The notes beneath the pieces are model-generated. The model was not told the origin of the DNA, did not search any database, and worked only from the letters and a program-made list of their open reading frames with translations. Positions 1 through 64,000 of a DNA stretch of 64,000 nt are shown here, piece after piece. This DNA comes from Sabellastarte sp. h YS-2021 (taxonomy: Eukaryota > Annelida > Polychaeta > Sabellida > Sabellidae). The DNA lies in assembly GCA_964017235.1 (NCBI GenBank), contig OZ024929.1, positions 162,301,609 through 162,365,608 on the forward strand, written 5' to 3'. The position numbers were made by a program, and so were the translations under genes. Each line of letters starts with the position of its first letter. The first letter of the stretch is position 1.

Positions 1-905
1 AAACAGCACGTCTCTAGGCCTTGTAGTTTTGGAGGAGAAGTTGTTCACGCGTACGCGGACGCCCACGCCGAAGAGTGACGACATAAAAAGTAGCTGAATA
101 AGTTATTCCAAGAAAACGCCAAAATCCTGACCGTTTTTGAGATACAGATCAAGTACCCATTTAAAAAAAATTTACGAAAATAAAATGCCTCCCCTTCAGG
201 TAGGGCTGTGACGGGTACAAAATAAGGGCATTGAGTACTCGCCCTCTGACAACCGGCCCGAATTCGAGTAACCGCGAGATTTAGTTCCCACTATTAGAAG
301 TCTTCTGTAAACAAATAGTCGATTCCGGAAATGAAACTTTTGAAGAAAAACGTCTCCTATTTAACCAGATATTATAGATTATGGAGTAAATTATAGGTTG
401 TCAAGCGAAAACAACAACTTTAATTGATGTTATGTGACGGAAATGCTGAAATGCAGCATATTTTACACAAACGTTTCATTACGTGGGCGAAAATACAATA
501 CCTCGTGAGTACTTAAAATGGACTCGAGTACTACCCAAGAACGACTCGTCTACCGAGGCTCGAGTACTCGTTTGCAGCCTTACCTTCAGGCATCTATGGT
601 CCGATTGATCAGAACATCCTTTCCGACCTGCGGATTTAGGTCTAGAATGTACCTGATAAATTTTATAGCACAGGTGTGTGTGGTTTTTTCTGAAACACGA
701 TGACGGGGTGTTTTTGAAAAAAGCTTAAGGTCTCCACAAAGTATCCCAAAAATTTTTCCCACCCCTATAGTTTAAAAGAAAGATAAGAAGGAAAGAAAAA
801 TTTGAAAGCCCAAGAAGTTATTCAAGGGAGACCATAATCCTGTGGCGGCGGCGATCAGTCAAACTTACTTGAAAACAAATAAGCGCCCCTGACGGGCCGC
901 TTAAT
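1..905 (+). mobile_element. 3' part of array element family C, hairpin end
   Basis: Left-truncated by the window edge. Bases 1-105 carry the GTTCACGCG / CACGCCG block that also ends family B (13020-13100, 36520-36590). The rest matches 59290-59760 in reverse complement: the stretch ending in AGACCATAAT, then GTGGCGGCGGCGATCAGTC, then AAATAAGCGCCC. It ends in hairpin 881-902 (AAGCGCCCCT...CGCTT) followed by AATTA. A hAT MITE interrupts it at 201-582. It lies beyond the last NDC1 exon visible here, so it is in NDC1 intron 4. No coding sequence seen. Confidence 0.75.
201..582. mobile_element. hAT-type MITE with 8-bp target duplication
   Basis: The 382-bp element begins TAGGGCTG and ends CAGCCTTA, imperfect terminal inverted repeats. 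It is flanked by a perfect 8-bp duplication CCTTCAGG (193-200 and 583-590), the hAT signature. The related family C copy at 59594-59612 reads through without the insert, an empty-site paralogue that fixes the borders. The small ORF at 518-703 runs across the border and is not a gene. Confidence 0.85.
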
Positions 906-955
906 TACAAAGAAAATGTTCCACAACAAACATTACATTAGTTAAGGGCACTTAC

Positions 956-1127
956 TCATCATCTGAACAGGCATGGGAGAAAGCATGCAGTTTTCCTCCC
1001 AGTATATGCAGCAAACACCAGCAAAGTACAGCACTGGCAAGGGCCGTAAGCGAGATGTGAAGACTCCGGGCAAAACTGAACAGGTGAAATAAAGCACCCC
1101 AGCGACTGCTACTCACTTCAGGGACAA
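956..1127 (-). CDS. NDC1: NDC1 nucleoporin, coding exon 4 (partial gene)
   Basis: Fourth coding exon of the NDC1/TMEM48 homologue, a multipass membrane nucleoporin that helps anchor the nuclear pore complex in the pore membrane. The 172-bp exon follows acceptor ATTATCACAG and ends at donor GA|GTAAGTG. It opens in phase 1 and reads (V)VPEVSSSRWGALFHLF, and contains LCWCLLHILGG and HAC. The family has VVP...SR at its start, WC in the helix and a cysteine near the end, with about the same spacing. A hydrophobic segment (SLTALASAVLCWCLLHI) fits one of the N-terminal membrane helices. It leaves in phase 2. Exons for the remaining C-terminal three quarters are not in bases 1-955 and must lie left of the window. 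Confidence 0.75.
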
Positions 1128-3075
1128 CTGTGATAATGTTAAAGGAAATAATTAGTTTATCCTCATACATACATTAGGTTATTAGTGTATCTTTGAAAAG
1201 GTAAACAAAGCACCCCAGCAACTACAAACTGCTGGAATAACTGTCTTAGTAAGACAAAAAAAATTATTATCTCAATATCTACCCAATTTTACTGTAACTT
1301 AGAAGTAAAGAGTGCTGAGATTAGTTGAAAGACCAATATACTAGACATTTGTATGAATTGGAATCATAAATAGAATTCAAGATAAAATACTTGATTTACA
1401 AATTTACTTGCAAGCCATTAAGTTGTTTGAAATTTCATTACTAAACAAAATTAACATTTATAATGCAATTATAATTGCTTTAAATTTATTCACTACCAAA
1501 ATCAGATACACAATCATGCAAATTACAGATCTGTTACAAAATTACACTTGTTATTTAATGAAAGCATTAATAATTAGTCAGAAGAACTGAAAAAAAAAAA
1601 CAAGAAAAATGTTTTTGCTTACAACAACAAAGCATTCGCAAAGGTTAGATGCAATATAGTATAAAAGTAGAAAAACATTTTTGAAAAAAAAGGAACTAGC
1701 AGTCCTGAGAGAAGTGAAAGTTAAGCAGACAGTGAATAGCTTTATTCATTAACATGAAAGAACAAGCAATCAGTGCCTGTAAACAGGCTCTGTGTCAGCT
1801 GACTTTGTGTTTGAGTACAAAAGGACACAAAAGCTGTGTGCTGCAAATGGTTTTGAGAAGTATAAATTTAACTGTTAAGGTGCTTCCTAAGGAGCTACTG
1901 AGGACCTGGTTCATAACAAAGGTAGAGAGTTCCAAAAGTAGATGCATAGTGACTTGTCATACTTTAATAATGATATATGGGTTTTGTAAACTTTGAAGTC
2001 AAAAGAAGGGATTATTAAAGGAACCCAAAGTTTTGGGAAGATAGGCTGCCATTTCAAATGGCTCAGCCAACTAGATATCAGGAATACATAGTTCATGATA
2101 GTATGTACTAAAGACATATGAACCAACTACTATTGTGTGCCACCCAGCCACAATTCAAGAGAACAAGCATTCTACTGATTGATGTAATTCCAATTAACAG
2201 CCCTCCTTTGTACATTACTTTGTTTGTACACATTTGCATTTGATTAAGGTTGTCCTTAGGAAAAAAACTTTGCTGCTCAGGTGTTTGAAGTACACATATT
2301 CTGATGTTTGAAATTCATCCTTTTGTGAATTGCCCTGTGATTTGTACATCAACGGGGGGTAAATTTGGCTTCCACAAATTCAATCCAGCCCCCATAAAAG
2401 GCAATACATCAGAAAGTAATCCTAAAAAGAAGGCTTTCCACTAACTAGTCTTTTCATCACAGTGTGGAAGTCATCCCTATTGTGTTGATTTGTTAACTAT
2501 TTAAGTGATCACTTAATATGATTTGTCCCAATTGTTAGGGTGTCACAAACTTAGCTTTGAAACAACTGACTTGATAAAAGTTAAAGATGTTTGAAAACTT
2601 GTTGAAAACTCATAATTACTATATATTGATATAATTATATTGCTATTTGATATTTTAATTTTTTTAAATTTATAAACTTAAATGACAAATAATGGAAAGA
2701 AAGAAATTAAATAATTTTCATGAAATAGTAAATTTATATCCCACGGAAGACCTAATAGTTAACCAACAGTTATACCTAGAAAAAAAAATAAAATGGCTGG
2801 GGGCTGGAGCCCGCCGTTTTAAATGGCTCAGCCATTTAGAACCATTATTTAAACCTACTGAATGTAAATGCAGGCTCTGTCATTTAAACCGGCGGACCCC
2901 ACCGTTTTAAACGGCTTGGGGGTCAAAACGGCAGTGAACATAGCTATTACTTAATTATGCAATGAGCTACAAGTCTGAAATTTTACTATGTTCTAATCTA
3001 ATCTACTGCTTTGCAGGCGCAATATATTCCCCACTAAGGGGAACTCAGTGTGCTAGTTTACAAAAATCATTTTTA
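1128..3075. other. NDC1 intron 3, AT-rich part without genes
   Basis: I see no coding exon in this stretch. Bases about 1610-1670 resemble the 5' end of family A (compare 3105-3160), so a degenerate fragment may sit there. Around 2790-2930 there is a GC-richer patch with an internally repeated ATGGCT / GCCGTTTTAAA motif (AAATGGCTCAGCCATTTA), a local palindrome of unknown origin. Confidence 0.5.
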
Positions 3076-3589
3076 ACTAGAGGATCGCTCGCAAAAAAAA
3101 AAAGATAATGTTTTTGCATAGCAAAAACAAAGCGTCCCGAAAAGGATATAAAGGTGAGTGCTAAAGTATTAAGAAAATGCTTCGTTTCTAGCCTTATACT
3201 GTTGTGGCAACCAAAGTCAGCGCAGTCTGCTCTATCTAGCACAGTTTTCACGATATAAGCATTTTTGTGTTTTGCAAAAAGATAAAAAAATTAAAAATGT
3301 CCGCTATATTTGGCGAGACAAAAATATTTTGAAAATTGGCATGGCTACTCTGCAGAGATACCCAGCAGGTCCAAAATTTTGTTGAGTTTGCTCCATATAG
3401 CACAGTTTTCGAGATATAAGCATTTTTGTGTTTTGCAAAAACTTTGAAAATTCAAAATGGCCACCATTTTTGGGGAGACAAAAATTTTCGTCAAGACCAC
3501 TGCCGTGGTGTGTATCTCCCGCCGAGCATTAAAGCAGAAGAAATAGCTTTTCCGAGATATTCACAATTTTTCATTTTCGTGTGTGAAAG

Positions 3590-5584
3590 GTCTTCCAAAA
3601 GTAGGTGAATGAGTTATTTGAGAAAAATTGGCTATCTACAATACTTTTACAGATAATTCGCATTTACTCATTTTGAGTAGGTGAATAAATAGCTATGGGT
3701 CTGAAACTTCACAGAGTGAAAGCTCTCCCAAAAGTAGGTGAATGAGTTATTTGAGAAAAATTGGCTATCTGCAATACTTTTACAGATAATTCGCATTTAC
3801 TCATTTTGAGTAGGTGAGTAATTAGCTATGGGTCTGAAACTTCACCAAGTGAAAGCTCTCCCAAAAGTAGGTGAATGAGTTATTTGAGAAAAATTGGCTA
3901 TCTGCAATACTTTTAGAGATAATTCGCATTTACTCATTTTGAGTAGACGAGTAATTAGCTATGGGTCTGAAACTTCACCAAGTGAAAGCTCTCCCAAAAG
4001 TAGGTGAATGATTAATTTGAGAAAAATTGGCTATCTGCAATACTTTTAGAGATAATTCGCATTTACTCATTTTGAGTAGGTGAGTAATTAGCTATGGGTC
4101 TGAAACTTCACGAAGTGAAAGCTCTCCCAAAAGTAGGTGAATGAGTTATTTGAGAAAAATTGGCTATCTGCAATACTTTTACAGATAATTCGCATTTACT
4201 CATTTTGAGTAGGTGAGTAATTAGCTATGGGTCTGAAACTTCACAGAGTGAAAGCTCTCCCAAAAGTAGGTGAATGAGTTATTTGAGAAAAATTGGCTAT
4301 CTGCAATACTTTTACAGATAATTCGCATTTACTCATTTTGAGTAGGTGAGTAATTAGCTATGGGTCTGAAACTTCACCAAGTGAAAGCTCTCCCAAAAGT
4401 AGGTGAATGATTAATTTGACAAAAATTGGCTATCTGCAATACTTTATGAGATAATTCACATTTACTCATTTTGAGTAGGCGAGTAATTAGCTATGGGTCT
4501 GAAACTTCACCAAGTGAAAGCTCTCCCAAAAGTAGGTGAATGAGTTATTTGAGAAAAATTGGCTATCTGCAATACTTTTAGAGATAATTCGCATTTACTC
4601 ATTTTGAGTAGGTGAGTAATTAGCTATGGGTCTGAAACTTCACGAAGTGAAAGCTCTCCCAAAAGTAGGTGAATGAGTTATTTGAGAAAAATTGGCTATC
4701 TGCAATACTTTTAGAGATAATTCGCATTTACTCATTTTGAGTAGGTGAGTAATTAGCTATGGGTCTGAAACTTCACGAAGTGAAAGCTCTCCCAAAAGTA
4801 GGTGAATGAGTTATTTGAGAAAAATTGGCTATCTGCAATACTTTTAGAGATAATTCGCATTTACTCATTTTGAGTAGGTGAGTAATTAGCTATGGGTCTG
4901 AAACTTCACAGAGTGAAAGCTCTCCCAAAAGTAGGTGAATGAGTTATTTGAGAAAAATTGGCTATCTGCAATACTTTTAGAGATAATTCGCATTTACTCA
5001 TTTTGAGTAGGTGAGTAATTAGCTATGGGTCTGAAACTTCACCAAGTGAAAGCTCTCCCAAAAGTAGGTGAATGAGTTATTTGAGAAAAATTGGCTATCT
5101 GCAATACTTTTAGAGATAATTCGCATTTACTCATTTTGAGTAGGTGAGTAATTAGCTATGGGTCTGAAACTTCACCAAGTGAAAGCTCTCCCAAAAGTAG
5201 GTGAATGAGTTATTTGAGAAAAATTGGCTATCTGCAATACTTTTACAGATAATTCGCATTTACTCATTTTGAGTAGGTAAATAATTAGCTATGGGTCTGA
5301 AACTTCACCATGTGAAAGCTCTCCCAAAAGTAGGTGAATGAGTTATTTGAGAAAAATTGGCTATCTGCAATACTTTTAGAAATAATTCGCATTTACTCAT
5401 TTTGAGTAGGTGAATAATTGGCTATGGGTCTGAAACTTCACCATGTGAAAGCTCTTCCAAAAGTAGGTGAATGAGTTATTTGAGAAAAATTGGCCATCTG
5501 CAATACTTTTAGAGGTAATTCACATTTACTCATTTTGAGTAGGTGAGCAATTAGCTATGGGTCTGAAACTTCACCAAGTGAAAG
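3590..5584 (+). repeat. 133-bp tandem array, 15 units
   Basis: Units begin CTCTCCCAAAAGTAGGTGAA at 3723, 3856, 3989 and so on every 133 bp. The count from 3590 to 5585 is exactly 15 x 133, so no net indel is seen across the array. Units differ only by scattered substitutions (for example ACAGATAATT/AGAGATAATT, CACCAAG/CACAGAG/CACGAAG). Both flanks are 169-bp repeat sequence, so the array lies inside the 169-bp array. Confidence 0.95.
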
Positions 5585-5589
5585 CTCTT

Positions 5590-6890
5590 TGGGATAGCTG
5601 CTCTGCAGAGATACCCTGAAGATAAAAAATTTCGTCGAAATCGCTCTATGTAGCACGGTTTTCGAAATATAAGCATTTTTGTGTTTTGCAATTTTTGCGC
5701 AAAAATTCGAAAATTCAAAATGGCCGCCATTTTTGGCAAGCCAAATTTTTTTTGAAAATTGGCATGGCTACTCTGCAGAGATACCCTGTGGGTCAAAAAT
5801 TTCGTCGAAATCGCTCTATCTAGCACGGTTTTCGAGATATAAGCATTTTTGTGTTTTGCAATTTTGCGAAAAATTTGAAAATTCAAAATGGTCGCCATTT
5901 TTTGCGAGAAATTTTTTGTTTGAAAATTAGCATGGCTACTCTGCAGAGATATCCTGTGGGTCAAAAATTTCGTCGAAATCGCTCTATCTAGCAGGGTTTT
6001 CGAGATATAAGCATTTTTATGTTTTGCAATTTTTGCGAAAAATTCGAAAATTCAAAATGGCCGCCATTTTTGGCGAGACAAAATTTTTTTGAAAATTGGC
6101 ATGGCTACTCTGCAGAGATACCTTGTGGGTCAAAAATTTCGTCGAAATCGCTCTATCTAGCAGGGTTTTCGAGATATAACCATTTTTATGTTTTGCAATT
6201 TTTGCGAAAAATTTGAAAATTCAAAATGGCCGCCATTTTTGGCAAGATAAAATTTTTTTGAAAATTGGCATGGCTACTCTGCAGAGATACCTTGTGGGTC
6301 AAAAATTTCGTCGAAATCGCTCTATCTAGCACGGTTTTCGAGATATAAGCATTTTTGTGTTTTGCAATTTTGCGAAAAATTCAAAAATTCAAAATGGCCG
6401 CCATTTTTTGCGAGAAATTTTTTGTTTGAAACTTGGCATGGCTACTCTGCAGAGATACCCTGTGGGTCAAAAATTTCGTCGAAATCGCTCTATCTAGCAG
6501 GGTTTTTGAGATATAAGCATTTTTATGTTTTGCAATTTTTGCGAAAAATTCGAAAATTCAAAATGGCCGCCATTTTTGGCGAGACAAAAATTTTTTGAAA
6601 ATTGGGAAAAGTACTCCGCAGAGATATCCTGCGGGTCAAAAATTTTGTCGAAATTGCTCTATCTAGCACGGTTTTTGAGATATAAGCATTCTTGTGTTTT
6701 GCAATTTTTGCGAAAATTTCGAAAATTCAAAATGGCCGCCATTTTGGGCGAGATAAATTTTTTTTGAAAATTGGGAAAACTACTCTGCAGAGATACCCTG
6801 CGGGTCAAAAATTTCGTCGAAATCGCTCTATCTAGCACGGTTTTCGAGATATAAGCATTTTTGTGTTTTCCTTATTTGGAAAATTCGCAA
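5590..6890 (+). repeat. 169-bp tandem array, about 7.5 units
   Basis: CTCTGCAGAGATA recurs at about 5601, 5771, 5939, 6108, 6277, 6445, 6614 and 6783, a 168-170 bp period. Each unit carries CAAAATGGCCGCCATTTTTG and TTCGAGATATAAGCATTTT. Related partial units lie at 3240-3590, and in reverse at 50760-51300. Confidence 0.92.
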
Positions 6891-7284
6891 TGATTAATTA
6901 ATCATTAATTACTCGGCCATTTCTTGACCAATCAATGCCAAAATCTAATGATTTCCAGATTTCAATAGAATGAATGTATTTGCCAAGTTTCAGGTGAATT
7001 GATAAAATTCCTTTCAAGTTATCATCCGGACAAGCTTCCCCATCGAAAAAAGACATTTTTGGTCATGTGACCTCTCTGATTGGTTGAAATGTCACTGCAG
7101 CATATTCAAAAAAATTCCCCAGGGCTACTGCCTAAACCTGCCAAATTTGAAAAGAATCCGCCTAACGGTTACAGAGTTATAAGGAAAACAAAATGCGGAG
7201 CCGGCGGAGCCGGAAGCTCTCCCATACACAAACAAGCGTCCCTTGCGGGATGCTTAATAAGGAGAGTTATAGCTGCAAGAAAAA

Positions 7285-7747
7285 TAGATGAAAAAAATAT
7301 TAACAAAATGCTCTAAATGCAATACTTTTCAAGTTATAAGAGATTTACTGCATGAACTTAAGAATTTTAATGCATTAAAATTATTTTTAAAAAATTTATA
7401 AAAAATTTTTAAAAAGATCCAGGCCTGATACACAAGGAAATCTACTTGTGGCCTAGTACATATATGCAAGATAAGACAGAAATCCTTGCAATAGTCATTG
7501 AGAAAATTATGATAAAGTGTTGAAATTTACACACTTTGGGTGAGGGTAAATCTCTTCTAACGGCTCTGGGGAACAGATGAACAGACACATCTGCACGCCT
7601 TAAACAATTTATCATCCTCAATAAATAAGGCATCTTTTATAAGCAACAGCATGTCTCTTGGCCTTGTACTTTTGAAGGATAAGTTGTCAACACGGACACG
7701 TATACGGACACCGCAGAGTGATGCCATGAAGTCAGCTGACATAAAAA
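7285..7747 (+). mobile_element. Solo end of array element family B
   Basis: Matches the last 440 bp of the family B copy at 12690-13125: GCATTAAAATTATT, then GGCCTAGTACATATATGCAAG, then the CAACAGCATGTCTC block, CACCGCAGAGTGATG and a terminal GTCAGCTGAC at 7731-7740. The upstream array and other end are missing. The two antisense ORFs here are not genes. Confidence 0.75.
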
Positions 7748-7897
7748 TGTTAGCTTCATTTTGTTAACCCCAACTCATAAAGGCTGGGGTTATAGTCGTC
7801 ACTTGTGACGTCTGGGTGGCAGCGGGCATAAAGCTGTGGGGGTTTCACAGCCTAAACCCTTGCATGGATTTCCACCAAATTTTCAGGGTATGTTTAC

Positions 7898-8268
7898 TAG
7901 TGTTGGGACTCGCCTTCAACTTTCAGGGTCGATTATTCGTCCATTTTTCCGACCGATGATCGACCCAAAATTGATTATTTTACTCCATTGTTGATCATTA
8001 ATTAAGAAACACTTTCCGGGATAAAGTATAGGTCAATCCGGTAAGAATAACGGTGTTCTGACATTTAGAATCTACTAAAAATACCCACTTCCTGTAAATA
8101 TGGTGGTAGACGTAAACAAACTCGAAATTCATGACAAATCTGTCTATTTATTAAGTAAAAATACATAAAATATAATTTAATCGATCATTAAAAAACGTTT
8201 GTAACCGACTGCAATTGTGCACTGTCACCGACGATTAATGGAGCACACGTCTAATTATCCACCCACTA
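7898..8268. mobile_element. hAT-type MITE in the family G array
   Basis: The 371-bp element begins TAGTGTTGGGA and ends ATCCACCCACTA. Perfect 8-bp duplication ATGTTTAC on both sides (7890-7897, 8269-8276). Removing the element and one duplication restores the array text AGGGTATGTTTACTCCAAGA. Confidence 0.9.
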
Positions 8269-8943
8269 ATGTTTACTCCAAGAGGATCCAGAGCTGATTA
8301 GGTTTCTGGGGGTATTTGGCAACAACTGATGCCATGGCAATACTTTTAAGATTTTTTGGTCTTAAACTTTGTGGGTGTTCCACAGCCCAAACCAATGCAT
8401 GGATTTTCACCAAATTTTCAGGGTATCTTCACCCTAAGACGATCAAGAGCTGATTAGGTTTAGGGGGGTATCTGGTAAGAACTGTTGCCATGGCAACACT
8501 TTTAAGATTTCTTGGTCTAAACTTTGTGGGTGTTCCACAGCCCAAGCCCTTGCACGGATTATCACCAAATTTTCAGGGTATGTTTACCCCAAGAGGATCT
8601 AGAGCCGATTAGATTTTGGGGGGTATCTGGCAAGGCTAAGATTTTTTGGTCTTAAACATTCGGATGTTCCACAGCCCAAACCCCTGCATGGATTTTCACC
8701 AAATTTTCAGGGTATATTTACCCCAAGAGGATCTAGAGCTGATTAGGTTTTGGGGGGTATCCGTCAACAACTGTTGCCATGGCAACCTTTTGAGGATTTT
8801 TTTGGTCTTAAACCTTGTGGCTGTTCCACAGCCTAAACCAATGCACAGATTTTCACCAAATTTTCAGGATATGTTTACCCCAAGAGGATCTTGAGCTGTT
8901 TAGTTTTTTGGGGGTATCTAGCCACAACTGTTGCCATGGCAAC

Positions 8944-9341
8944 TAGTGGTGGGATCGCCAGCTTAAATGAAAGATCGAGCATCACTTGTTAGAAGCGAGT
9001 TGAACTCGAGTCAAACTCGAGTAATTTTCAGGATAAAGTATTTCGTTTGTTAGCGAAAATATTTTACATAACCGTACATGAGGCAAAACTTTGAACTGGA
9101 AATGGTCTTTCGCGATATAATTTAAGTTAAATCTTCATTGATTTAAGCAAGAATAAAGTAAAAATACAATATATTTTTGAAAATTTCAGATATTTCTATT
9201 GTTTTGGTGAAATGTCAGCCTTAGATGGTGAAAATATATACGTGTTCAAAAACTTGAGTTTGACTTGCGCAAATCGATGCGACCCCCAATTATCGCCCAT
9301 CGAGTTGTAACTCGAGTTTCCGTCAACTCGTCCCAGCACTA
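8944..9341. mobile_element. Second hAT-type MITE in the same array
   Basis: The 398-bp element begins TAGTGGTGGGATCG and ends CGTCCCAGCACTA, close inverted repeats. Perfect 8-bp duplication ATGGCAAC (8936-8943, 9342-9349). The interior has CTCGAG-rich inverted stretches near each end (about 8996-9015 and 9296-9325). Confidence 0.9.
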
Positions 9342-10640
9342 ATGGCAACACTTTAAATACTTCGGGGTTTTAACGTTTGTGGGTGTTCCACAGCCTAAAC
9401 TGATGCATGGATTTTCACCAAATTTTCAGAATATGTTAACCTGAACAGGATCTACAGATGAGTAGGTTTGGGAGGGTATCAGACAATACCAGTTGCCATG
9501 GCAACGCTTTAAATACTTTCAGTCTTAAAATTCTTAATTTAGAAAGGGGTGCAATTAAACCAATGTTACCACAGTTGCATATCTTCACCAAATTTGCAGA
9601 GCATGTTTATGACTGTGAAAACATGTCTTTAAAAATTATGGTACTCATTTTAAAAAACAACATGGCCGCCATAGCTGATTTACTCGAAAATCAATGATAT
9701 GTTCTAAAATTTAAAATATTGCAGCTAGCTGTGTCAGATTTGCACAAAATGTAAATGGCTAGGAAAGCTTGCCTGAGAGTAATTGTGGCCTTGTTTTGAA
9801 AACAAAATGGCTGCCATATCTCCCTTGTTGGAATGACAAAACAACTTCTTGGAAATCTTGGTCTGCAAATCTTTTGCAAGTGTCAAATTCAACCTTCGAT
9901 CCCTGCTTGAAGGTCATTTAGTGTCATCATGCTAAAGAGGCTTTATATCTCCCTTATCATTGGTTCTAGGGCATCAAAATATGAAAACAACTTCTAAGAA
10001 ATCATGGCCTGTGAATCTTATGACTGACAACATTTCGTGGATCCTGTATACTTCTTACAACTTAAGTTGTTCCTAAGATTTTCCCAAATCTCAATTTTGT
10101 CGCCCATTTAGTTATACTTGCGGGCTGGGGTTCTTGCCCGCCAAGGCTGGCTATTTTTTTTTATGGTCATAAATTGTGAAAAGTTAATTTAAGAAATGCT
10201 ATAGTTTGTAAGAAGAGTTGTTTAGGTGTAAAATATGCCTACTAAAAAAAAAGATTACTTGTGGTCATATTATAAACCCCCAATTTGTGGAAAGTCCAGT
10301 AAAATATAACCCTAAATATTGAAGAGGAAAAAAACGGTTTGTTGAAACCTTTCTACCCGGCAGCCTTTAAAAGTTGTGCGAGTATTGCTTAAAGCAATGT
10401 CATCTGGCTGGACGGATGAGCTGTCGGGCAGCAGCAATCAGGCAGATATCTAGAATCTTTGTGTCTGGTTTCCTATAGCCCGGCAGTTTGACCCCAAGAG
10501 GGCGAGGGGGAATTTAACTTGCTTTCAAGACTCTCCATGTATGGTTTCAGCTCAAGTTTTTGATAGTATGAACATGTGTATAAAATTACAAGCCTCTGCG
10601 GTTAGTAGATTTTGTTGAGCGGGTGTACCCCCTAAACAAG

Positions 10641-20019: not shown

Positions 20020-20029
20020 TCCGGCTAAG

Positions 20030-21090: not shown

Positions 21091-21094
21091 GTCT

Positions 21095-32415: not shown

Positions 32416-32419
32416 AATC

Positions 32420-46583: not shown

Positions 46584-46619
46584 GTAAGAAGTTAGATATA
46601 TATATACATTAAAAAACGA

Positions 46620-49046: not shown

Positions 49047-49049
49047 GAG

Positions 49050-50455: not shown

Positions 50456-50457
50456 CT

Positions 50458-51471
50458 AATTAAGCGTCCTGCAAGGGACGCTTGTTTGTATATGGGAGGA
50501 AATCAGGCTCCGCTGTCTCTGCTGGCTCCGCTGCTTCACGTTTTGTTTTCCTTATAACTCTGTGACTGTTGGGCGGATTCTTTTGAAATTTGGCAGGTGT
50601 ATGCAGTAGCCCCGGGGAATTTTTTTAAATCTGCTGCAGTGACATTTCGACCTATCAGAGAAATGGCCGAGTAATTAATGATTAATTAATCATTACGAAT
50701 TTTCCAAATAAGGAAAACACAGAAATGCCTCTATCTTGAAAACCATGCGCAATAGAGCAATTTCAATGAAATTTTTGACCCACAGGGTATATGTCAAGAT
50801 TAACACATTTTTCCAAAAATTTTTGTCTCACCAAAAATGGTGGCCATTTTGAATTTTCAAATTTTTCGCAAAAATTGTAAAACACAATCGAGAAATTTTT
50901 GGCCCACAGGGTATCTCTGCAGAGTAGCCATCTGGATTTCCAAAAATGGTGGCTATTTTGAATTTTTGGCCCAAAGGGTATCTCTGCAGAGTGGCCATTT
51001 TTTTTTTTTTTTTCGCAAAAATTGCAAAACACAAAAATTATTATATCTTGAAAACCGTGCTAGATAGAGCAGTTTCGACGAAATTTTTGACTCACAGGGT
51101 ATCTGTGTAGAATAGCCATCCCAGTTTTCAAAAATATTTTGTCTCGCCAAAATTTACAGCAATTTTGAATTTTCAAATTTTTCGCAAAAATACTTGTATC
51201 TCAACCGTGCTAGATAGAGCAATTTCAATGAAGTTTTGATCTGTGGGGTATCTTTGCAGAGTAGCCATCCCGATTTTTGTCTCGCAATATATACCATTTT
51301 TATGATTGCTCAATACCTAATAAACTATGCAGACTTTGGTTGCCACAACAGTATAAGCTATAAGCAGAGCATTTTCTTAATACTTTAGTACTCACCTTTA
51401 TAACCTTTTTGGGATGCTTTGTTTTTACTGTGCAAAAGTATTATCTTTTTTTTTGCAAGCGATCCTCTAGT
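50458..51471 (-). mobile_element. Array element family A, short minus-strand copy
   Basis: 3' hairpin 50462-50483 (AAGCGTCC...GGGACGCTT), the CpG-rich module (CAGGCTCCGCTG, GCTGGCTCCGCTGC), and 5' end ending ACTAGAGG at 51464-51471 (complement). It holds only about three irregular units of the 169-bp repeat (CTCTGCAGAGT at 50922, 50990) and none of the 133-bp array present at 3590-5584. Confidence 0.82.
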
Positions 51472-51479
51472 TTCTTTTA

Positions 51480-54400: not shown

Positions 54401-54650
54401 TTATTGAAACAGATCACACAGATTCTTCCAGACCAAGATATCTTTGCAGATTAGGTTTAGAGTCAGTTACTGGATTAAATACCCCAGTTTCAATACATAG
54501 TGGAAGTATTCCTGACCGAAATTATGTTAGTAATGACCTTTTGATATATTGGAAGAGACATTTTCACATTTGATTCATTTTCATTATTATATACGACTTT
54601 TCTATATTTTTGTTTGGGACCAATATTTCTGTTTTATTGTCATATCCATT
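51480..54650. other. Intergenic, no gene seen
   Basis: AT-rich sequence without recognisable exons. The 76-residue ORF at 53419-53649 has no recognisable domain and no neighbouring exon signal that convinces me. Confidence 0.4.
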
Positions 54651-54699
54651 CAGTGAAAGAAGAAAAATATTTATAATTCATATATTTTTCATAATTTCT

Positions 54700-57600
54700 T
54701 GCATTTTTACCCCAGACCTTTTAAAGTTATTGGTTTCACTGATGGTGTCTGGTTGGGTGATGGAAAGAATCCTGTCTGGGCTTTATCTCCGAAACAGTAA
54801 GATGTAGGATGTTGATACTTTGTAGAGACATTGGATTGTGGTGTGTGTGCAGTGTCATTATTTGACCTTGACCTGACCTTTGACTTTCTGTAGTGACCCT
54901 GACCTTTCAAATCTTGTCAGAGCTGTATCTCAGAGACAGTAAGGTGTAGAAAGTTATTGCTTGGTAGGGACATTGGTTAGGGATGTAGATGTGCAATGTC
55001 ATAACATTACCTTGTGTGACCTTTTACTTTAACTCTGCCAGAATGTTTTCTGTCATATTTGAGACATATTTCACCCATGACAAAGATAAGTGGATTGCTG
55101 CAACTGACCATTATACATACTTTTAGCTAATTATGCTAATTATTATCTTGCCATTGAATTGTCTTGTTTTGATACTTTACATACATTTTCTCTCTGCTAA
55201 ATGTTATTTCTCCTGCACCTTTTAAATGCCCGTAACTTACACTATCTGTTCTGAGAGTCTCCTGATCATTGTGCTGTTTCACCTTTTCTACAACTTATAG
55301 TGTCCAATGCTATTTGCCTAGGCTGTGGGATCCCTGATGCAATTTTTGTATATATAGTGTCTGATGATGTATATTTGTATTTGTACATTTTCATGCTATT
55401 TAAATCCTTTGCTATTTCTGTTCAAATGGTATATAAATTCATGCATAGCTTTCAGAGAATAGTACATAAATCATTTGATGTAACATTATATTAACGTCAT
55501 TGGAAACATGTAGTTGTTTCATAGTTATTTTAGAATAAAGTGATTTCAAGAGAGTATTTTTGTTTGTCTGTTGTGGTTTTTAATGATTTACTTTATTATT
55601 TACCCTTGACTTTACCATAGTGATGTACGAGCGTATATGGCGCAAGGACAATTCCGCAATTAACCACAGTAGATATCGTGCGGTTGTCAACCGCTACAAT
55701 TTTCTACTTGAAGAGTCTAGATGAAGGCACTATTCCGCAGTTATTGCTGAAAACAATGGTAATCCCAAGGCTCTGTGGAACACTTTCAAAAAAATTCTAC
55801 ATAAATCTTCGACCATTATTTTACCCGATCATGTCAGTCTGAAAGATCTAGCCAATTCCTTTGGGCATTTTTTCTGTGACAAAATCATGAAAATCAGAAG
55901 CGCACTACAGTCATCGGTTCCAGTTTCGATCACCAGACCAAGCATGAACAACAGTGCCTTCTCTTCTTTTGAGCCTATATCTGAGGAAGACATTCTCAAA
56001 ATTCTAAAATGATCTACCAAATCGTGATCTAGACCCAATACCAACCTCACTGGTCAAAGATTGCGCAGACATCCTAATCACCCCAATTACCAATATCATA
56101 AATTATTCGCTCAAAGAAGGCAGTTTCCCTAACTGTTTCAAAATCGCATATGTTACTCCCCTTCTCAAGAAGCCTAGCCTAGATAGAAATCTCCTGAAAA
56201 ACTATAGACCAGTGTCAAACCTTAGTTTCATATCAAAATTGATTGAAAAAGCTGTAGCGAATCAGTTAAATAGTTACATCAATAAAGAGGGGCTCTCCAA
56301 TCTCAACCAATCAGCCTACAAGAGATTGCATTTCACAGAAACAGCACTCCTTAAAATTCAAAATGACATTGCTGCTTCGATGGACTCAGGTAAGGCTGTT
56401 GCTCTTACATTATTGGACCTCTCAGCAGCATTTGATATCATTGACCACACCATTCTTTTTAACTGCCTCAGGGATTGGTTCGGCGTGGATGGCACTGTGC
56501 TGATGTGGATCAAATGATATCTCACAAATCGTAGACAGAAAGTTAAATTGGGTAATAGCTTCTCGGATGCCTTCTCATTCCCTTATGGGGTCCCTCAAGA
56601 TTCTGTCCTGGGTCCACTTCTTTTCACTCTTTACACTACCGCCCTCGGCCATATAATTTCCGGTTTCAATGTTGCCCATCATCTTTATGCCGATTACACC
56701 CAAATATACTTGGCACTTGATTCCAGGAACTTTGATTCCAGTATTGATGAGCTCACAGAGTGTCTTGCTTGCGTTCAAAAATGGATGGATGGTGTCAGAT
56801 TGAAACTTAATCCAGAGAAGACAGAATTTATCATCAGTGGCGACAGACAGGCCACGGAGTCAATCATGCAAAAATTTCCCACCCAGTTTCTTGGAAACTC
56901 AATCTCCCCCACTAATGAAGTTAAGAATTTAGCTGTTACTTTTGATTCTGGGAACACCTTTGCCAGCCATATAACCAAAGTTTGTCGTGCCTGCTACTAC
57001 CATCTCAAAGATCTCAGACGCATTCGTAAATTCCTCAGTGTGGAGACTGCAGCCCTGCTGGCCAACTCAATGATCAGTAGTCGAATTGACTACTGCAATT
57101 CCCTACTTTATGGTGTGAATAAATACAATGTGGCTAAACTCCAAAAGATTCAAAATGCCCTCTGTAGAATTGTTTTTAGACTTGATAAAACAAGCCAGGT
57201 TACTCCCTATCTTCAAAAACTACACTGGCTCCCCATTTCATACCGTATCCTGTTCAAATATAAACTTATTACATTCAAGGCTATCAAATTCTCCCAACCC
57301 TCATATTTATCATCCTTAATCAAACCCAGTAGCCTTACTCGTGGAAATCAGCTTTCTCTTTCTTCAGTTCGTCCCAAGAAGGCCATTGGTAGGCGAGGTT
57401 TTGCAATGGCTTCTCCCACTGAATGGAACAGACTCCCACAATCGGTACGATCTCAGAACACAATCATAGGGGTTCGAAGCCACCTAAAGACCTACTTGTG
57501 TAGACTTGCATACCCCCACCATAGTATTTCTCCCCTTGTGGCGCTAAATCAGGATTTTGACCCGGCATGTCCCTCGAATTTCCCTTTTTTGCCTTAAGCG

Positions 57601-57960
57601 CATTAGAGGATGTTGCATCAATTTTGCGCTATATAAATGATTCTATTCTATTCTATGTAGACCTTGTGTATTTTCCCCAATCAGTATCTCAGAAATCATA
57701 AGGTATAAGAAGTTTTTTACCAGGCAGAGAGTTGGTTAGGGGTTGTAACTGTGCAGCTTTAGAGTGTAACCTTGATTGGACACTGCCACGGTGACTTTGA
57801 AATTTAAAATCTCACGTGGGCCATATCTCAGTCGTATGGTTAAGAAAATTCTTAGTTGGCAGGAATATTTGTTGGAGGTGTAGTTATTTAAGTCATGGTG
57901 TGACCTTGATTTGAATTTTATCTTTTAGTGACCCTAAAATTTAACATTTTGTCTGACCCA
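54700..57960 (-). repeat. Family H array remnants, split by a LINE
   Basis: Reverse-oriented H units at 54770-55000 (GTAGGATGTTGATACTTTGTAG, TTGACCTTGACCTGACCTTT) and 57660-57960 (GGTATAAGAAG, GGTTAGGGGTTGTAACTGTG). The text TTGACTTTACCATAGTGA just left of the LINE is the H phrase 'GACTTT...TAGTGACC', which continues beyond it. Confidence 0.7.
55622..57660 (+). pseudogene. 5'-truncated L2/CR1-like LINE reverse transcriptase
   Basis: Non-LTR retrotransposon ORF2 remnant. A weak upstream part (WRKDNSAINHSRYRAVVNRY, stops, a frameshift near 56010) leads into the RT domain: PIPTSLVKDCADI, TPLLKKPSLD, NYRPVSNLSFISKLIEK, LLDLSAAFDIIDH, YGVPQDSVLGPLLFTLYT (QG changed to QD) and LYADYTQIY, then the thumb and C-terminal domain (LHWLPISYRI) to the stop at 57595-57597. 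The RT box YADD reads YADY (56686-56697), so a catalytic aspartate is lost; a TGA (56515-56517) breaks the frame. The 3' end GCGCTATATAAATGATT plus a TTCTA repeat tail (57641-57657) is typical of L2/CR1-type elements. The endonuclease is missing. Confidence 0.9.
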
Positions 57961-59272
57961 TAACCCTGATGCTATTCTGTGTTAATATATCGGAACAGGA
58001 TTTAATGGTGACAAAAAGCAGTACATACAATGTCGTCTGCACTGTAAAGTACTGGGTATCAATGACCAGCTTCTGAAGGTTCATATTTCCGGCCATGGGG
58101 AAGATTCTAATTAACCTGAGGGATGAAGGCAGTTGTGTTATTACAACATCACTGAATATTTCTAGTCAAATAGGGCTGATCAGTTGTAACCTCATATCTA
58201 TGTATTTAAATCTTATGTAAAGTTTAAATTTTAGCTTACCTTTTACATTAAAAAAGATGGAAAAATACCACTTGCAATATTCAAATATGGTATACTGTTT
58301 AGAATAGAGCCTAGAAAATCCATTGATTGATGTTAAACTCAATTTGTAACTTGCAAGAAAAATTGGCTAGTAATTTTATACTATTGATACTTTTTATGTA
58401 GATTCCCTTGTGTGAATATCAGGCTAGGATCTTTCCTGGATTATATCCCCAGATGAAAGTCGGGGATATATTGCATTCAGGTCCGTCGCACCGCCGCCGC
58501 CGTAGAAATGTCCTTGTGTACGCGATACCTCGAAAATTGATCAGTATTTTTTTTTCAAACTTGGTACACATGTTAAGGGTGCCCAAAGGAAGATCCCTAT
58601 TTTAAGGTGACCTTAAACTCCCAATAATAAAGAACTTATGGCCACCTTAAGGTCAGAAATTTGACTTATGGCCACTTAGAGCCCTCTATGTCACAAACTA
58701 TGAGGCTCATCTGGCTAAAACTTTACCTGAGAACACATTAATATATTCTTAGTACATGAGTCGAAAGTGAAGACTTTAAGGTGAGGAGAAAATTGTGTTT
58801 GTGCCCATAAAGACCCCACTTACGGATTTTTTCCTACATTTTTCACTTATTTTGCCCTATAATTTGGAAGTGGTAATTCTAATGAGTCTCAAACTGCACT
58901 AGGTATAACTTTTATATGTAATCCTTGTCTGTGAAAAATTTAAAGGTTGTAGGTTTACCTATAAGGTCAACTTAAGGTCTCAAAATTGCCCACAGAGACC
59001 CAATTTATGGACTTTTTGCCACTTTCAAGCACTGTAGCTTTCAAACTATGTCTCTCATCTAAGTGAAATATCATCTGGGAATATATCAATATGTTTTTTT
59101 ATATGTGCCCCAAAATTTAGGTCTTTAATAGACATTTAACCTGTGTATGAGTAACATAAACACCCACCCGAGTGACCCTTTTAAGACATTTTTCACATAT
59201 TTTGCCCTGTAACTTGGAAATGGTAAGTCTGAGAAGTTTCAAACTGTATAAGATATAAATTCTATGTGTAAT

Positions 59273-62200
59273 TATTAATTACTAATTACTAATTAATGGG
59301 TCGCTTATTTGTTTTCACATAAGTTCGACTGATCGCCACCGCCAGATTATGGTCTCCCTTGAATAACTTCTTGGTCTTTCAAATTTTTCTTTCTTCTTAT
59401 CTTTCTTTAAAATTATAGGGGCGGGAAACATTTTTGGGATACTTTCAGGAGACCTTTAAGCATTTTTTAAAAACACCCTGTCATCGCGTTTCGGAAAAAA
59501 CACACACCAGTGCTATAAAATTTACCAGGTACATTCTAGACCAAATTTCGCAGGTCAGAAAGGATTTTTTCATCAATCGGACCATAGATGTCTGAATGGG
59601 AGGCGTTTGATTTTCGTAATTTTTTTTAAAATGAGTACTTTGTCTGTATCTAAAAAATGTCAGGATTTTGGCGTTTAGTTGGAATAACTTATTCAGCTAC
59701 TTTTTGATAATCTTTCACATGCCGAAATTTTAGCCCTGTATCTGCAATCTTAAGGTCATCTTAATGTCAAAAAAGGGGGTTTAACCCTCCAGTTCACTTA
59801 GTTTTTCACTTTTTTCAACCAAACTTGGCATATATAAGAAGATTTACCAAAGGATTATCTTGATGTTATGGTGACCTTAAACTGTTAATATTATTGGAGC
59901 TATGGCCCGCATAAAGTCATAAGATTGGAATAAAACAGCCCGGCTCCTTTATTTTTTCATTTTTTTTAAAATCTAACATGTATTGATATTGAGGTAGATA
60001 AAAAAAAGACATCTTACTACCGAATGATTTAAATATTAATAATGTTATGGCCAACTTAAACTTAACATATAGGGTTTTTCAGCCCTAAGCTCAGTTAATG
60101 TTTAAATTTGTAAAATAAAACTTGGCACATTTATAAAGGTTGCTAGGACATTCTAATTTTATGGTCACCTTAAAGTCCCAATATGAATGAAGTTATGGTC
60201 TCCTTACAGTGACAAAAAGGAAGTTTTCAGCCTACAGCTATCTTATTGTTCAACTGACCTCAGCTAAACTTTGTACACTTATAAAGGATGACAAAAGGGA
60301 CATTCTTATTTTATGGTCACCTTAACGTCCCAATATTAATGAACTTATGGCCACCTTGCAGTGAAATTATGGAGTTTTTCATCTCCAGCTATCATACTGT
60401 TCAGCTCACCTCAGTTAAATTTTGCACTTTAAAGATGACAATAGGGACATTCTTATTTTCTTTCCACCTTGGAGTTCTAATACAAGTACAGTCATGGCCA
60501 TCTTGAAGTAAAAATGAGTTTTCAGCAGCCAACTGACTTACTGTTCAATAACAACAGTTTAACTTAACACATTGATTAAGCTTAAGGAAGATTTTTATGA
60601 CCTTTTTTCTTAAAATTCTTGTATTTCAGAGACTTTGGCCATCTTAACATAATAAATATATAGTTCTTGCGGTGTACGGAACTTTGCCCTTCAGGTACTT
60701 TGCCCTTCAGGTACGTTGCCCTTCGGAACTTTGCCCTTCAGGTACTTTGCCCTTCACTAAATATGAGGGGTAGGAACTTTGCCCTTCACTAATTAAAAAT
60801 GCCCTTCACATGTAAAAACCTTTACTGGGAGTAATAGCACACTTTAGTACTATACAGTACTATACTGGGAATGAATCACCACAGGAAATGTAAAGCCCTT
60901 CACATTCAAAAAAGTTTTATTAGGATTACTTGCATACTACATAAAATCCAGAAATAAAATCCAGAAGTTAATTTATAAAGTTGTCATACCCTTACAATAA
61001 GTGCTTTTTATTATTTTTAATATGTGTAATTAAGCTTAAATGGATCTAATTTGTGGATCAACAAACTGATTCTACATACTACATAAGACACAACTATGTA
61101 CAAGCCCTTCATATTTTTAAGAACATTTGTTGGGATTAATTGTAGATCTTAATTGCATACTATACAGAGGCCCTTCATATTTTAACAAAGTTTAATTAGG
61201 ATAAATTGCATACTACATAAATTATTGAATTGAATAATACATAAAACTGGATTATTGATTGTCTAGAATAATAGCCTTCAATTATGTAATCATATGATAA
61301 AGTATCTTCTGTGATCATGGACTGAAACAATAGAACTGCCACAACAGTAAGAAACCAGTTATGGGTTTACCAGTCTCTCATTCATTCACCATCCATTTCC
61401 CTTTTCACCTCAATAGCCAATTCAACAAAAGGTCTGTCACCCATAGAAATGTATTGTGGGGATTAACTTGGACAACAGTCTTTTTGTTGGGCTTGACATG
61501 CATTATACAGTTATATATTATACATACTTGGCTTCCTCAACAAAATAAACACAGTATCTCATTCATTCACCATCCATTTCCCTTTTCACCTCAATAGTAA
61601 ATTCAACAAAAGGTCTGTCACCCATAGAAATGTATTGTGGGGATAAACTTGGACAACAGTCTTTTTGTGGGGCTTGAAAACAACTCGTTTACACACATGA
61701 ATGGACAATATTTATAATTTAAATTTTTTTTCATGTGAAGGGCATTTTTAATTAGTGAAGGGCAAAGTACCTACCCCTCAAATTGAGTGAAGGGCAAAGT
61801 ACCTGAAGGGCAAAGTTCCGAAGGGCAACGTACCTGAAGGGCAAAGTACCTGAAGGGCAAAGTTCCCGGATTCAGTTCTTGCTCCCACCTCATTTATTTT
61901 AAGACTTTTTAAAACCACACTTGGCACATGTATACTTAAAACTAAATTTCTGTTATCTGGCAAAGCTAACCTACTATTTATGAAGTTATGGCATCTTAAA
62001 AAATGAGGTATTTAGCATGCACTGATGTGGTTATTAACATATTACAGCTGATCAATGTTTATATAATGTAAATTCCCAATTTTAGGCACATTAAAAAAAT
62101 CCCACATTCTTCTGATTCCATTGTGGAATTGTGTGGATATGCTTTTTCCTTTTTGGGGGGAGAAAAAGGCTTTAATTCAGCTTTTGTTTTGCAGCAGGAG

Positions 62201-62805
62201 TTGTTGATCTATCTACTTATTCACATTGACTATTTAAATTGGTCCAATGTATAGACTTGACTTCTTTCAGAAGATAAGATGACTGAGAAAAGCACTTTCT
62301 CATAAACAGTTTTTCTTGTACAGTATTTTATGTATCTCCAGCTAATTGAAAAGGAATGAGTTGTCTCTTTTTTCTCGTCCAACTCTGTATTTGGTTTTGT
62401 GTGATATCTATCTGGAGGCACATTCATAGCAAGTCCCATGGCCTGCTGTGCTATTCATCCCTTCTGCACACTGAGTGAAAAGGTTGATAAGGGATATCAA
62501 GATGTATTCATTTCCTTTCATTAAGGGATATGCTTACAGTAAATCTTCTTGGGGGTAAACAATTCAAACAAGGACATTAAAATTTAGGTTCATAGAAGTG
62601 GATCCTTCTGGAAGTAATAGCTCACATTCTGCTTACAGTTTGATACTGCAACTGCTACAGTTTTAAATAATCCACCTTTTTATCAGATACAAAACACAGT
62701 AAAGCTTATGTTCTCCTTACAGTCTCATACTGCAACTACTACAGATTTATTAATCCAAGTCTCCATCCCGGCTGCTTGTTTTTGTCAGCAAAATCCTTTT
62801 CTAGT
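59273..62805 (-). mobile_element. Full-length family C array element
   Basis: Minus orientation. The hairpin/3' side is at 59273-59370 (here degenerate: GGGTCGCTTATTTG, GATCGCCACCGCC). The 5' side ends near 62805, reading ACTAGAAAAGGATTTTGCTG on the minus strand. It contains the region homologous to 590-840, an array of about 150-bp units (60100-60540: TTATGGTCACCTTAAAGTCC; CTTTGTACACTTATAAAGG), a nested fold-back element (60671-61873), and end-specific text CCGGCTGCTTGTTTTTGTCA shared with 45410-45440. No target duplication is evident at its borders. Both ends are fixed by the interrupted family D repeat. Confidence 0.82.
60671..61873. mobile_element. Fold-back Mutator-like element, 9-bp target duplication
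   Basis: The 1203-bp element is flanked by a perfect 9-bp duplication AGTTCTTGC (60662-60670, 61874-61882). Terminal inverted repeats of about 130 bp consist of short modules GGAACTTTGCCC, TTCAGGTACTTTGCCC and TTCACTAAT, with the complement at 61740-61865. The interior has a direct duplication of about 125 bp (61373-61498 and 61555-61680: TCATTCATTCACCATCCATT; GTCACCCATAGAAATGTATT). No transposase. Confidence 0.88.
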
Positions 62806-63440
62806 CTTTGTATGTGACAGATTTTAAGTCTGAAGCTTTAATTTGAAGGTCACATTGAGGTCTCTAAAAGGCTCACAGAGACACAATATTTGGACTTTTT
62901 GCCATTTTAAGCCCAGTGACTGTTAATCTATGTGACTGATCAAGCTGAAATCCCATCTGGAAATACATTATTATGTTCTTTTTATGTGCCAAAAATAAAG
63001 GCTTTAAAGACACATTTAACCTGTGTATGAGGACCATAAACACCCACCCGAGTGACCCTTTTTAGACATTTTTCACAAATTTTGCTCTATAACTTGGAAA
63101 TGGTAAGTCTGAGAAGTTTCAAACTGTATTAGATATAAATTCTATGTGTAATCTTTGTATGTGACAGAGGTCTCTAAAAGGCCCACAGAGACCCAATATT
63201 TGGACTTTTTGCCACTTTTAAGCCCTGTGACTGTTAAACTATGTGATTGATAGAGCTGAAATACCATCTGGGAATACATTATTATGTTCTTTTTACATGT
63301 GCCAAAAATCAAGGCTTTTAGTAGACATTTAACCTGTGTATGAGGACCATAGACACTCACCCAAGAGACCTTTTTGACATTTTTTCTGTATGTTGCCCTG
63401 TTATTTGGAAATGCTAAGTGTGACAAGTCTTAAACTGTAT

Positions 63441-64000
63441 TATGATCACCCCACTGGGGGGTGAACATATTATTTTTGCTTTTTCCGCCGTCTGGCGTCC
63501 GCCGTCCGTCACGCTTGGTTTCCGGTCATTTCAAGGAAAAGTATGTATCTTATCTTTACCAAATTTGGTATGGGTGTTTATTGGATTAATAGCTTGCATG
63601 GGATTGCTTTTGGTGAAGATAGCTCTATAGCTAACTGAGTAATAGCTACTTAGCTACTTTTGTGTGCATTATAAGGAAAAACATTTGACATATCTTTACC
63701 AAATTTGGTATGAACAATAGTTAGGTCAATAGCTTGCTTGGGATTGCTTTTAGTGATAATAGCCATATAACTGACTGAGTAATAGCTACTTAGCTACTCT
63801 GAGTAGCATTTTAATTTTAAGCATTTTAAAGGAAAAGTATTTCACCTATGTTCACAAAATTTGGGATGGAGGATTATTGGATGAATAGCTTGCTTGGGAT
63901 TGCTTTTGGTGATAATACCTTTATAGCTAACTGAGTAATAGCTACTGTGCTATATAGCTATTATGCTATTTTGAGGTGACTTTTTTCTTGACATTTTAAT
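63441..64000 (+). mobile_element. Start of array element family F, cut by window end
   Basis: Hairpin 63446-63464 (TCACCCC-ACT-GGGGGGTGA), then CCGCCGTCTGGCGTCCGCCG and TCCGTCACGC, then three units of about 150 bp (TTTACCAAATTTGGTATG; GCTTGCTTGGGATTGCTTTT; CTGAGTAATAGCTACTTAGC). GAGTAATAGCTACTT is also a core phrase of the family B array. The right part is outside the window. Confidence 0.7.

Follow-up and report, generated by a model that had tools for sequence, protein, structure and literature searches.

Seven hairpin-ended, array-carrying repeat families of a sabellid genome are very probably non-autonomous Helentrons, and their orientation seems to follow that of host genes

Overview

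A 64-kb stretch of the 1.786-Gb genome of the sabellid annelid Sabellastarte sp. (C3:162301609-162365608, to be referred to as the window) contains seven families of repeats, H1 to H7, which are built to one common plan and explain most of the long-unit tandem arrays of the window. We assign these families with high confidence to the HINEs, the non-autonomous kind of Helentron, a rolling-circle transposon; they are new members of the known HINE/DINE-1 plan, and a genuine Helentron with the same plan is present in this genome. As elements they are unremarkable HINEs, present in very many copies. The surprising part is their orientation: neighboring copies, also of different families, mostly lie on the same strand, and in the part of one chromosome and the small gene sample studied here this orientation seems to follow the transcription of the host genes.

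Overall organization of the elements

The families were re-derived from self-alignment, tandem-repeat calls and reading of the sequence, and were named afresh; the labels A-H of the first-pass annotation are undefined. When the copies are oriented hairpin-first, the modules have the same order in all seven families: a T-rich flank, the hairpin, a CpG-rich or GTCC-like block, a short core, the tandem array and, where it is defined, the right end. The modular layout that the first-pass annotation had proposed for several families is thereby confirmed. It had also described the hairpin as standing either before or after the CpG block. Both modules are present, but the order is not variable: the hairpin is the left (5') end in every family, with the block directly inside it, and the apparent difference arises because the copies lie on different strands.

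The left hairpin is formed by a 5' subterminal inverted repeat (subTIR) and a nearby inverted copy of it, and is found in H1-H7 as well as in the autonomous element (see below). These eight hairpins fold at -7.0 to -14.1 kcal/mol (energies without shuffles). The right end is defined in five of the seven families (H2, H3, H4, H5 and H7). It carries the left-end sequence in inverted form and in a subterminal position, with a palindrome and then a short tail after it. Exact inverted matches of the left to the right end reach 8 bp in H2, 12 bp in H3, H4, H5 and the autonomous element, and 11 bp in H7 (with the left end taken from the copy L040, as the window copy is diverged), compared to 4-7 bp in the 30 cross-family cells. 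The right palindromes of H3, H4 and H7 have energies of -9.0, -5.2 and -7.8 kcal/mol, respectively, and that of H2 was recognized by reading as GTTTTTGC-TAT-GCAAAAAC.

The CpG block of H4 is (GCC)n, with n = 2, 3, 6, 6, 7, 7, 8, 8, 10 and at least 14 in 10 copies. In H6 and the autonomous element the block is GTCCG- or GTCC-like. The block corresponds to the microsatellite module of DINE-1 and Cg_HINE. A conserved promoter or origin, a role that the first-pass annotation had proposed to test for this block, has no support; in H4 it is a microsatellite of variable length.

The short conserved part that had been described for all the families is clear in H2, H4, H5 and the autonomous element, but weak in the others. 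There, after the microsatellite, is a two-box core, TAACTC and then CAAACTTGG about 28-30 bases further. In the H5 array it is also repeated, roughly once in every monomer (window positions 14149-15102, with others at 29222, 43868, 50551 and 58522). A scan of both strands of the window gave 44 matches of at least 12 bits, versus about 2 per strand in 20 shuffles; the motif model was trained on the left-end cores and is partly circular, and served as a description only.

No H element holds any of the four open reading frames (ORFs) of at least 180 codons in the window, and thus none has a transposase of its own. Two of these ORFs are reverse-transcriptase pieces of long interspersed nuclear elements (LINEs), one encodes a Harbinger-type nuclease, and one has no Pfam match.

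Element ends and insertion sites

The ends of the elements are precise. For H3, 19 of 20 fetched copies have the same right end, with the tail TCTCCTCTTG in 17 and a one-base variant in two (L056 and L060), the exception being L061. The tail is followed by TT in 19 of the 20 copies, after which the flanks differ (L064 is without left context, and L065 extends only 13 bases past the pattern). In H5, CTATTT follows the palindrome in 19 of 20 copies, 17 of these having CTATTTTT; L077 differs. At the left end of H4, TTA precedes the search pattern in all 10 copies, with TT just before ATATCCCC, and at its right end TT follows the tail in 6/6. The right end of H2 is CTAG and then TT in 4/4 (window positions 3077 and 51470, L090 and L095). 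The H3, H5 and H4-left copies were selected by an exact match to part of the end, which favors intact ends. The boundary base itself is absent from the search patterns, the H4 left pattern beginning one base inside the boundary.

Exact matches to the end patterns are numerous in the genome: 7,481 for the right end of H3, 10,237 for the right end of H5, 7,037 for the left end of H4, 7,585 for the left ends of H1 and H2 jointly, and 5,640 for the left end of H6. The left hairpin of the autonomous family has 1,954 exact occurrences. Reversed-pattern controls gave zero for each counted end pattern (H1+H2, H3-H6 and the autonomous left end). A looser pattern for the CpG block gave 516 versus 31.

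An empty site is available for H4. In L012, a Rep ORF is broken by an H4 copy that is 98.7% identical to window positions 29141-30636 (H4b, see below) over 1,503 aligned bases. The same ORF is uninterrupted in L015 and L014, with 99.4% and 99.1% identity, respectively, up to the break. At the left junction (L012, about position 1499) and the right junction (L037, 5180-5260) there is neither duplication nor loss of target sequence, beyond what the T run at the insertion point leaves ambiguous. A non-autonomous H4 element has inserted into, and disrupted, the Rep ORF of an autonomous Helentron (L012 and L037).

The autonomous Helentron

A profile search finds 24 matches to PF14214 (Helitron_like_N) in the genome. 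Among these is an autonomous element in two near-identical copies, L033+L034 and L036+L035, with 99.0% identity over 6,623 aligned bases and 98.7% over 5,373. It has a single frame, 2,245 codons from stop to stop, of which 2,088 residues were scanned. Helitron_like_N (2.5e-25), DUF6570 and PIF1 (1.8e-27) are recognized in the scanned part, which places Rep and PIF1 in one protein. The C-terminal match to Exo_endo_phos is weak (E 2.1e-4, 21.6 bits, under the Pfam cut-off of 24.5). The translation also contains GDFN and SDH, which we take to be typical endonuclease motifs.

The element is bounded by AGGCGGGTTGCG and CGCAACCCGCCT. On the left are a hairpin, AGGCGGGTTG..CAACCCGCCT, and a GTCC-type microsatellite, and the array is short. 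On the right, CGCAACCCGCCT is followed by the tail CCCTCTTG, and three copies (L033, L035 and L006) diverge directly after it. An own-end scan of this element returned only its known ends (no null was run). As its end sequence differs from theirs, the element stands outside families H1-H7. The first-pass annotation had proposed to test for Rep-helicase elements with the ends of the carriers. What was found is an element with the same plan and end sequences of its own.

Left ends of this family are often arranged head-to-tail. Among the matches listed on C1, 19 of 99 neighboring pairs are less than 2 kb apart, all on the same strand, and 12 of them have spacings of 0.73-0.78 kb, as expected of rolling-circle read-through.

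Assignment to the HINEs

The first-pass annotation had suggested non-autonomous carriers, perhaps driven by Helentrons, and this is borne out by the subTIRs, the 3' palindrome, the insertion into a T run without duplication at one H4 empty site, and the Rep-helicase element of the same plan. The elements have a left module (5' subTIR with its inverted copy, forming the hairpin, the microsatellite or CpG block, and the short core) and, where it is defined, a right module (3' subTIR, palindrome and short tail), with the tandem array after the left module. From what the Helentron literature describes, a Rep-helicase supplied in trans would nick the left end, one strand would be copied and peeled off, stopping at the right palindrome, and the released strand would be joined to a T-rich target. 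The arrays may grow by slippage, recombination or rolling-circle repeats.

The modules are those of known elements, and the view that these repeats form an underdescribed system is not supported: DINE-1, the mite HINE and the oyster Cg_HINE have the same ones in the available parts of PMC4067079 and PMC7492417. Cg_HINE of Crassostrea gigas is described in the latter source with a left flank of 5' subTIR, inverted repeat and microsatellite (of GTCY, GTCC and GTCK types in several), a central satellite-like array, a right flank of 3' subTIR and palindrome, and T-rich insertion without target duplication. The likeness to the H families is at the level of module descriptions. Two things were seen here in addition, an intact autonomous Helentron built to the same plan and the strand pattern of the copies; the part of PMC7492417 available mentions no autonomous partner for Cg_HINE.

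DINE-1 of Drosophila and HINE-Mo of a mite share with the H families the subTIRs, core, microsatellite, tandem repeats, 3' palindrome and TT insertion, and DINE-1 also has an inverted repeat close to its left end (PMC4067079, as far as its text was available, here and below). HINE-Mo has palindromic subTIRs and no core, and H3 is similar to it in its palindromic subTIR core. For DINE-1 and HINE-Mo, autonomous Rep-helicase-endonuclease partners with the same ends have been shown, judged by an identical subTIR of at least 11 bp (PMC4067079). In contrast, no partner with matching ends was found for H1-H7 in the flanks of 6 of the 24 Rep loci. Pearl (bivalves) and Tsp (sea urchin) are DINE-1-like elements by citation only, in the source portions at hand.

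Several observations weigh against the assignment to the HINEs. The right ends of H1 and H6 were looked for and not found. An autonomous element with the ends of H1-H7 was not found in the longer flanks of 6 of the 24 Rep loci. The right palindromes of H5 (-3.4 kcal/mol) and of the autonomous element (-3.6 kcal/mol) are weak. Among all the families, only H4 has provided a true empty-site pair. Finally, in own-end scans of four other Rep loci, the matches exceed the null means at R18 (1 versus 0.3) and R22 (5 versus 1.7), compared to 1 versus 3.25 at R09 and 0 versus 1.1 at R21. The matches at R18 and R22 were judged to be noise; they are not GC-rich hairpins of the H kind, and two of the R22 sequences occur twice. 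H copies do lie near three of these four loci (H5 at R09, H7 at R18, H4 and an H5-like end at R22, none at R21), but are not the ends of the Rep elements.

It is very improbable that the families are instead DNA transposons with terminal inverted repeats (TIRs), of the foldback type or miniature inverted-repeat transposable elements (MITEs), with ends bound by a transposase and an incidental hairpin. Inverted copies of 8-12 bp are indeed present at the left and right ends. However, those on the right are subterminal, with the palindrome and tail after them, the H4 empty-site pair has no target-site duplication, and the sole autonomous element found with this plan is of the Rep-PIF1 type. For the families with defined ends, the earlier concern that each might belong to a different TIR class is thus not borne out. 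Even more remote is the idea that the ends are arbitrary edges of satellite arrays: some arrays in the window are cut or nested, but copies end at the same point amid unrelated flanks (19/20 for H3, 19/20 for H5, and 10/10 and 6/6 for the two ends of H4), which refutes it for these three families.

Orientation along the chromosome

The strand of the elements was compared along the first 33 Mb of C1 (0.8-33 Mb), with the first 100 matches listed per pattern; all counts in this section are among the matches listed unless the window is named. For same-family pairs 5-20 kb apart, the strand is the same in 10/11 (H3-H3), 11/11 (H4-H4) and 20/23 (H5-H5). Pairs of different families at this distance agree in 20/20 (H3-H4), 20/23 (H3-H5) and 15/18 (H4-H5). 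Below 5 kb the numbers are 2/4 (H3-H3), 6/7 (H4-H4), 4/5 (H5-H5), 4/5 (H3-H4), 4/5 (H3-H5) and 5/5 (H4-H5), and at 200-500 kb the agreement is 0.40-0.61. Within 200 kb, 443 of 627 cross-family pairs agree, a value reached by none of 2,000 strand shuffles and none of 900 circular shifts.

The agreement persists when other families are included. With H1+H2 and the autonomous family added, 88 of 97 disjoint cross-family pairs less than 20 kb apart agree (427 elements, all below 32.6 Mb; sites of the autonomous family farther along were omitted); the binomial p of 2e-17 treats the pairs as independent, which neighboring pairs in one run are not. In a smaller, earlier set, 44/50 agree. H6 was held out, and the majority of other-family elements within 20 kb has the strand of the H6 copy in 55 of 57 cases, with 2 ties and 41 neighborless copies set aside. 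After thinning of H6 to copies 20 kb apart, this becomes 45/47, and with distances of 5, 10 and 50 kb it is 15/16, 28/28 and 66/74. The coherence across families wanes over about 100 kb on C1, from 149/166 at 5-20 kb to 237/381 at 50-100 kb, and single-strand runs of up to about 0.375 Mb are seen in the C1 stretch that was printed.

The window shows the same pattern on a small scale. Seven of the eight H calls to the left of 15.2 kb are on the minus strand, and 14 of the 15 to the right of 26.9 kb are on the plus strand, some of these calls being parts of one element. The exceptions are H7 at 7.8-10.2 kb and an H7 fragment at 46.8-47.3 kb.

The 3' ends of LINEs were used as a control (99 of the first 100 matches listed). 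They tend to lie on the opposite strand from nearby Helentrons, with 0 agreements, 5 disagreements and 1 tie within 15 kb, 1/6/1 within 30 kb and 2/8/0 within 50 kb. By pairs, 2/13 agree within 20 kb and 6/12 at 20-50 kb. The LINE ends agree among themselves in 11/13 pairs less than 200 kb apart, and a coherent strand is therefore no special property of Helentrons. The LINE of the window at about 55.6-57.6 kb is on the plus strand within the plus part, contrary to the opposite-strand trend on C1.

Orientation relative to genes

Dynein heavy-chain exons (PF12774, 92 matches) served as markers of genes and introns. The sample comprises ten stretches between same-strand exons, 85.7 kb in 7 genes. 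They hold 13 H segments, or 12 after joining one that was cut between L087 and L088, and all 12 are in the sense direction. These segments, two of them short (184 and 103 bases), were mostly recognized through their array units rather than their ends; the 12/12 result is unchanged when the threshold is loosened and the library enlarged. The segments form eight clusters in six genes, four on the plus and two on the minus strand, and three stretches (L091-L093) have none. The two exons that flank one of the stretches, L089, match the same region of the profile, which may reflect a duplicated exon or gene. A kinase motif, as a further gene marker, had 42 matches, none of them in the mapped part of C1.

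The window itself contains TAX1BP3-like exons at about 43623-43775 and 46506-46584 (plus strand; PDB match, 3.9e-12), and the intron between them holds H4c, H5b and H1c, all in the sense direction. Counted by gene, the dynein sample is 6/6 sense (two-sided 0.031), and with the TAX1BP3-like gene, which prompted the idea, 7/7 (0.016), a small sample in both cases.

Possible causes of the orientation

The pattern likely arose from insertion coupled to transcription, or from the loss of antisense copies. We lean towards coupling at the time of insertion, more probably to transcription than to replication, but these data do not tell the three causes apart. Insertion coupled to transcription is put forward tentatively, as a plausible but somewhat doubtful explanation: the Rep protein would use the single-stranded, non-template DNA of active genes as the target for the released strand, and copies of at least six families would as a result point along the host gene. 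An asymmetry of targets was considered and rejected. On the sense strand of the masked introns, T runs of at least 4 number 537 and A runs 485; as the two are about equally common, the supply of targets does not explain the bias.

Selection is a substantial possibility, though still short of probable. Here, antisense copies would be purged from genes for their damage to splicing or polyadenylation, or through antisense promoters. An antisense bias of transposable elements in human introns has been ascribed to selection (PMC3517506, in the part available), and both the opposite-strand tendency of the LINE ends within 15 kb and their mutual coherence would fit selection by gene strand. However, if selection acted alone, copies between genes should be randomly oriented and agreement among neighbors would hardly reach 90-96%, which is why we lean towards coupling at insertion. 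The values of 88/97 and 55/57 would require that nearly all surviving copies are inside genes. Moreover, the listed copies have perfect end patterns, and many of them should be young. A polyadenylation-signal asymmetry was rejected as a cause, with AATAAA found 10 times in the sense and 9 times in the antisense direction of 16 library pieces.

Replication is a less likely cause. Insertion would track fork direction through the lagging-strand template, and the strand domains would be replication domains. The decay of agreement by 50-100 kb is a plausible replicon scale, and the long single-strand runs are in keeping with it. There is a bacterial precedent in the IS200/IS605 elements (PMC5371812, in the portion available). 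Fork direction alone, however, gives no gene-sense result unless genes and forks are co-oriented, and the dynein segments in six genes on both strands, together with the three elements in the TAX1BP3-like intron, are all sense, in what is a small gene sample. Because of this gene-sense result, transcription is preferred over replication.

Multiplication of ready-made same-strand pairs by segmental duplication or composite elements is very unlikely: the head-to-tail left ends of the autonomous family would suit it, but the 50 cross-family pairs of the smaller set have 50 different spacings, and the flanks of 20 H3 and 20 H5 right ends differ.

The choice of targets by Helentrons in vivo is, to our knowledge, an open question. 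Under coupling to transcription, the copies, tens of thousands in number, would together record germ-line transcription as a strand-resolved fossil map; in the replication version the record would be one of fork direction. Because any assembled genome that has gene annotation or replication data allows orientation to be read, the pattern would provide a simple test of Helentron target choice in vivo. Nothing on the orientation of Helitrons or DINE-1 within genes was found in the open-licence papers searched, including the available parts of PMC5371812 and PMC9341512.

Copies and other features in the window

The first copy is H1a (577-906, minus strand), a left module with the hairpin AAGCGGCCCGTCAGGGGCGCTT at about 881-904; its right end was not found. 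An old H3, H3d (1773-7741, minus), would pair a left end at about 7741 with a diverged right end at about 1775-1806, and is interrupted by H2a (3077-7257, minus). H2a has the left end TTAAGCATCCCGCAAGGGACGCTT, arrays of 169 and 133 bp, and a right end of ..GATCCTCTAG and then TT. An empty site for H2a inside an H3 unit was considered and dropped: the H2 copies L090 and L095 place the H2 end at ..CTAG and then TT, near 3077, with about 80 bases left over. These unexplained bases (2996-3076), with the palindrome TTCCCCTTAGTGGGGAA, separate the right end of H2a from array DNA of the H3 type.

After H3d comes H7 (7766-10155, plus), with the left hairpin AACCCCA..TGGGGTT, units of 134-157 bp and the right end GGCTGGGGTTCTTGCCCGC, its tail of uncertain length. 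H3a (10637-13126, minus) is a complete H3 with a 155-bp array, and its right end is as in 19/20 genomic copies. The left-end fragment H1b (13264-13337, minus) is followed by H5a (13915-15190, minus), a complete element with the left hairpin ACCCCACAGCC..GGCTGTCGGGGT, a 146-bp array and the right end GGCTGTGGGGTACGGGCATCACTGATG.

All the following copies are on the plus strand. H4a (26921-28230) is a diverged H4 with its left end. H4b (29143-32422) is complete, with the left hairpin ATATCCCCAGAC.., a 351-bp array and the right end GTCTGGGGATAT..CCCAATCTAG and then TTT. H3b (36483-39519) is a complete H3 with the 155-bp array and a second array of 143 bp. H3a and H3b lie on opposite strands and are 98.6% identical over 2,348 bp, the 143-bp array being extra in H3b. 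In the TAX1BP3-like intron, H4c (43791-46069) contains H5b (44214-44926), a partial copy with a right end, and the left module H1c (44984-45330). H2b (50460-51470) extends from the left hairpin through the right end CTAG and then TTT. H5c (54770-55347) is partial, with a right end, and H4d (58443-59272) is a left part. H1d (59297-60600) has a truncated left hairpin, and its outer limit is uncertain. An H4-type array fragment (62802-63443) precedes H6 (63447-64000), whose left end is present and which extends past the edge of the window.

A Pfam search for host exons in unmasked stretches of the window, with six frames for 917-3000 and 15200-26899 and the three plus frames for 46070-54769, found only LINE pieces, but it is insensitive, having missed the known exon at 46.5 kb. 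The reverse-transcriptase remnants of LINEs are on the plus strand, at 16715-18160 and 55620-57660. The ORF at 34441-35586 (plus) encodes a Harbinger-type DDE nuclease (PF13359, 1.7e-32), and the one at 39826-40446 (minus), without a Pfam match, lies near it. Finally, a MITE-like element of about 1.2 kb is located at 60678-61866, with 147-bp inverted ends (96%) and 16-bp tandem units inside.

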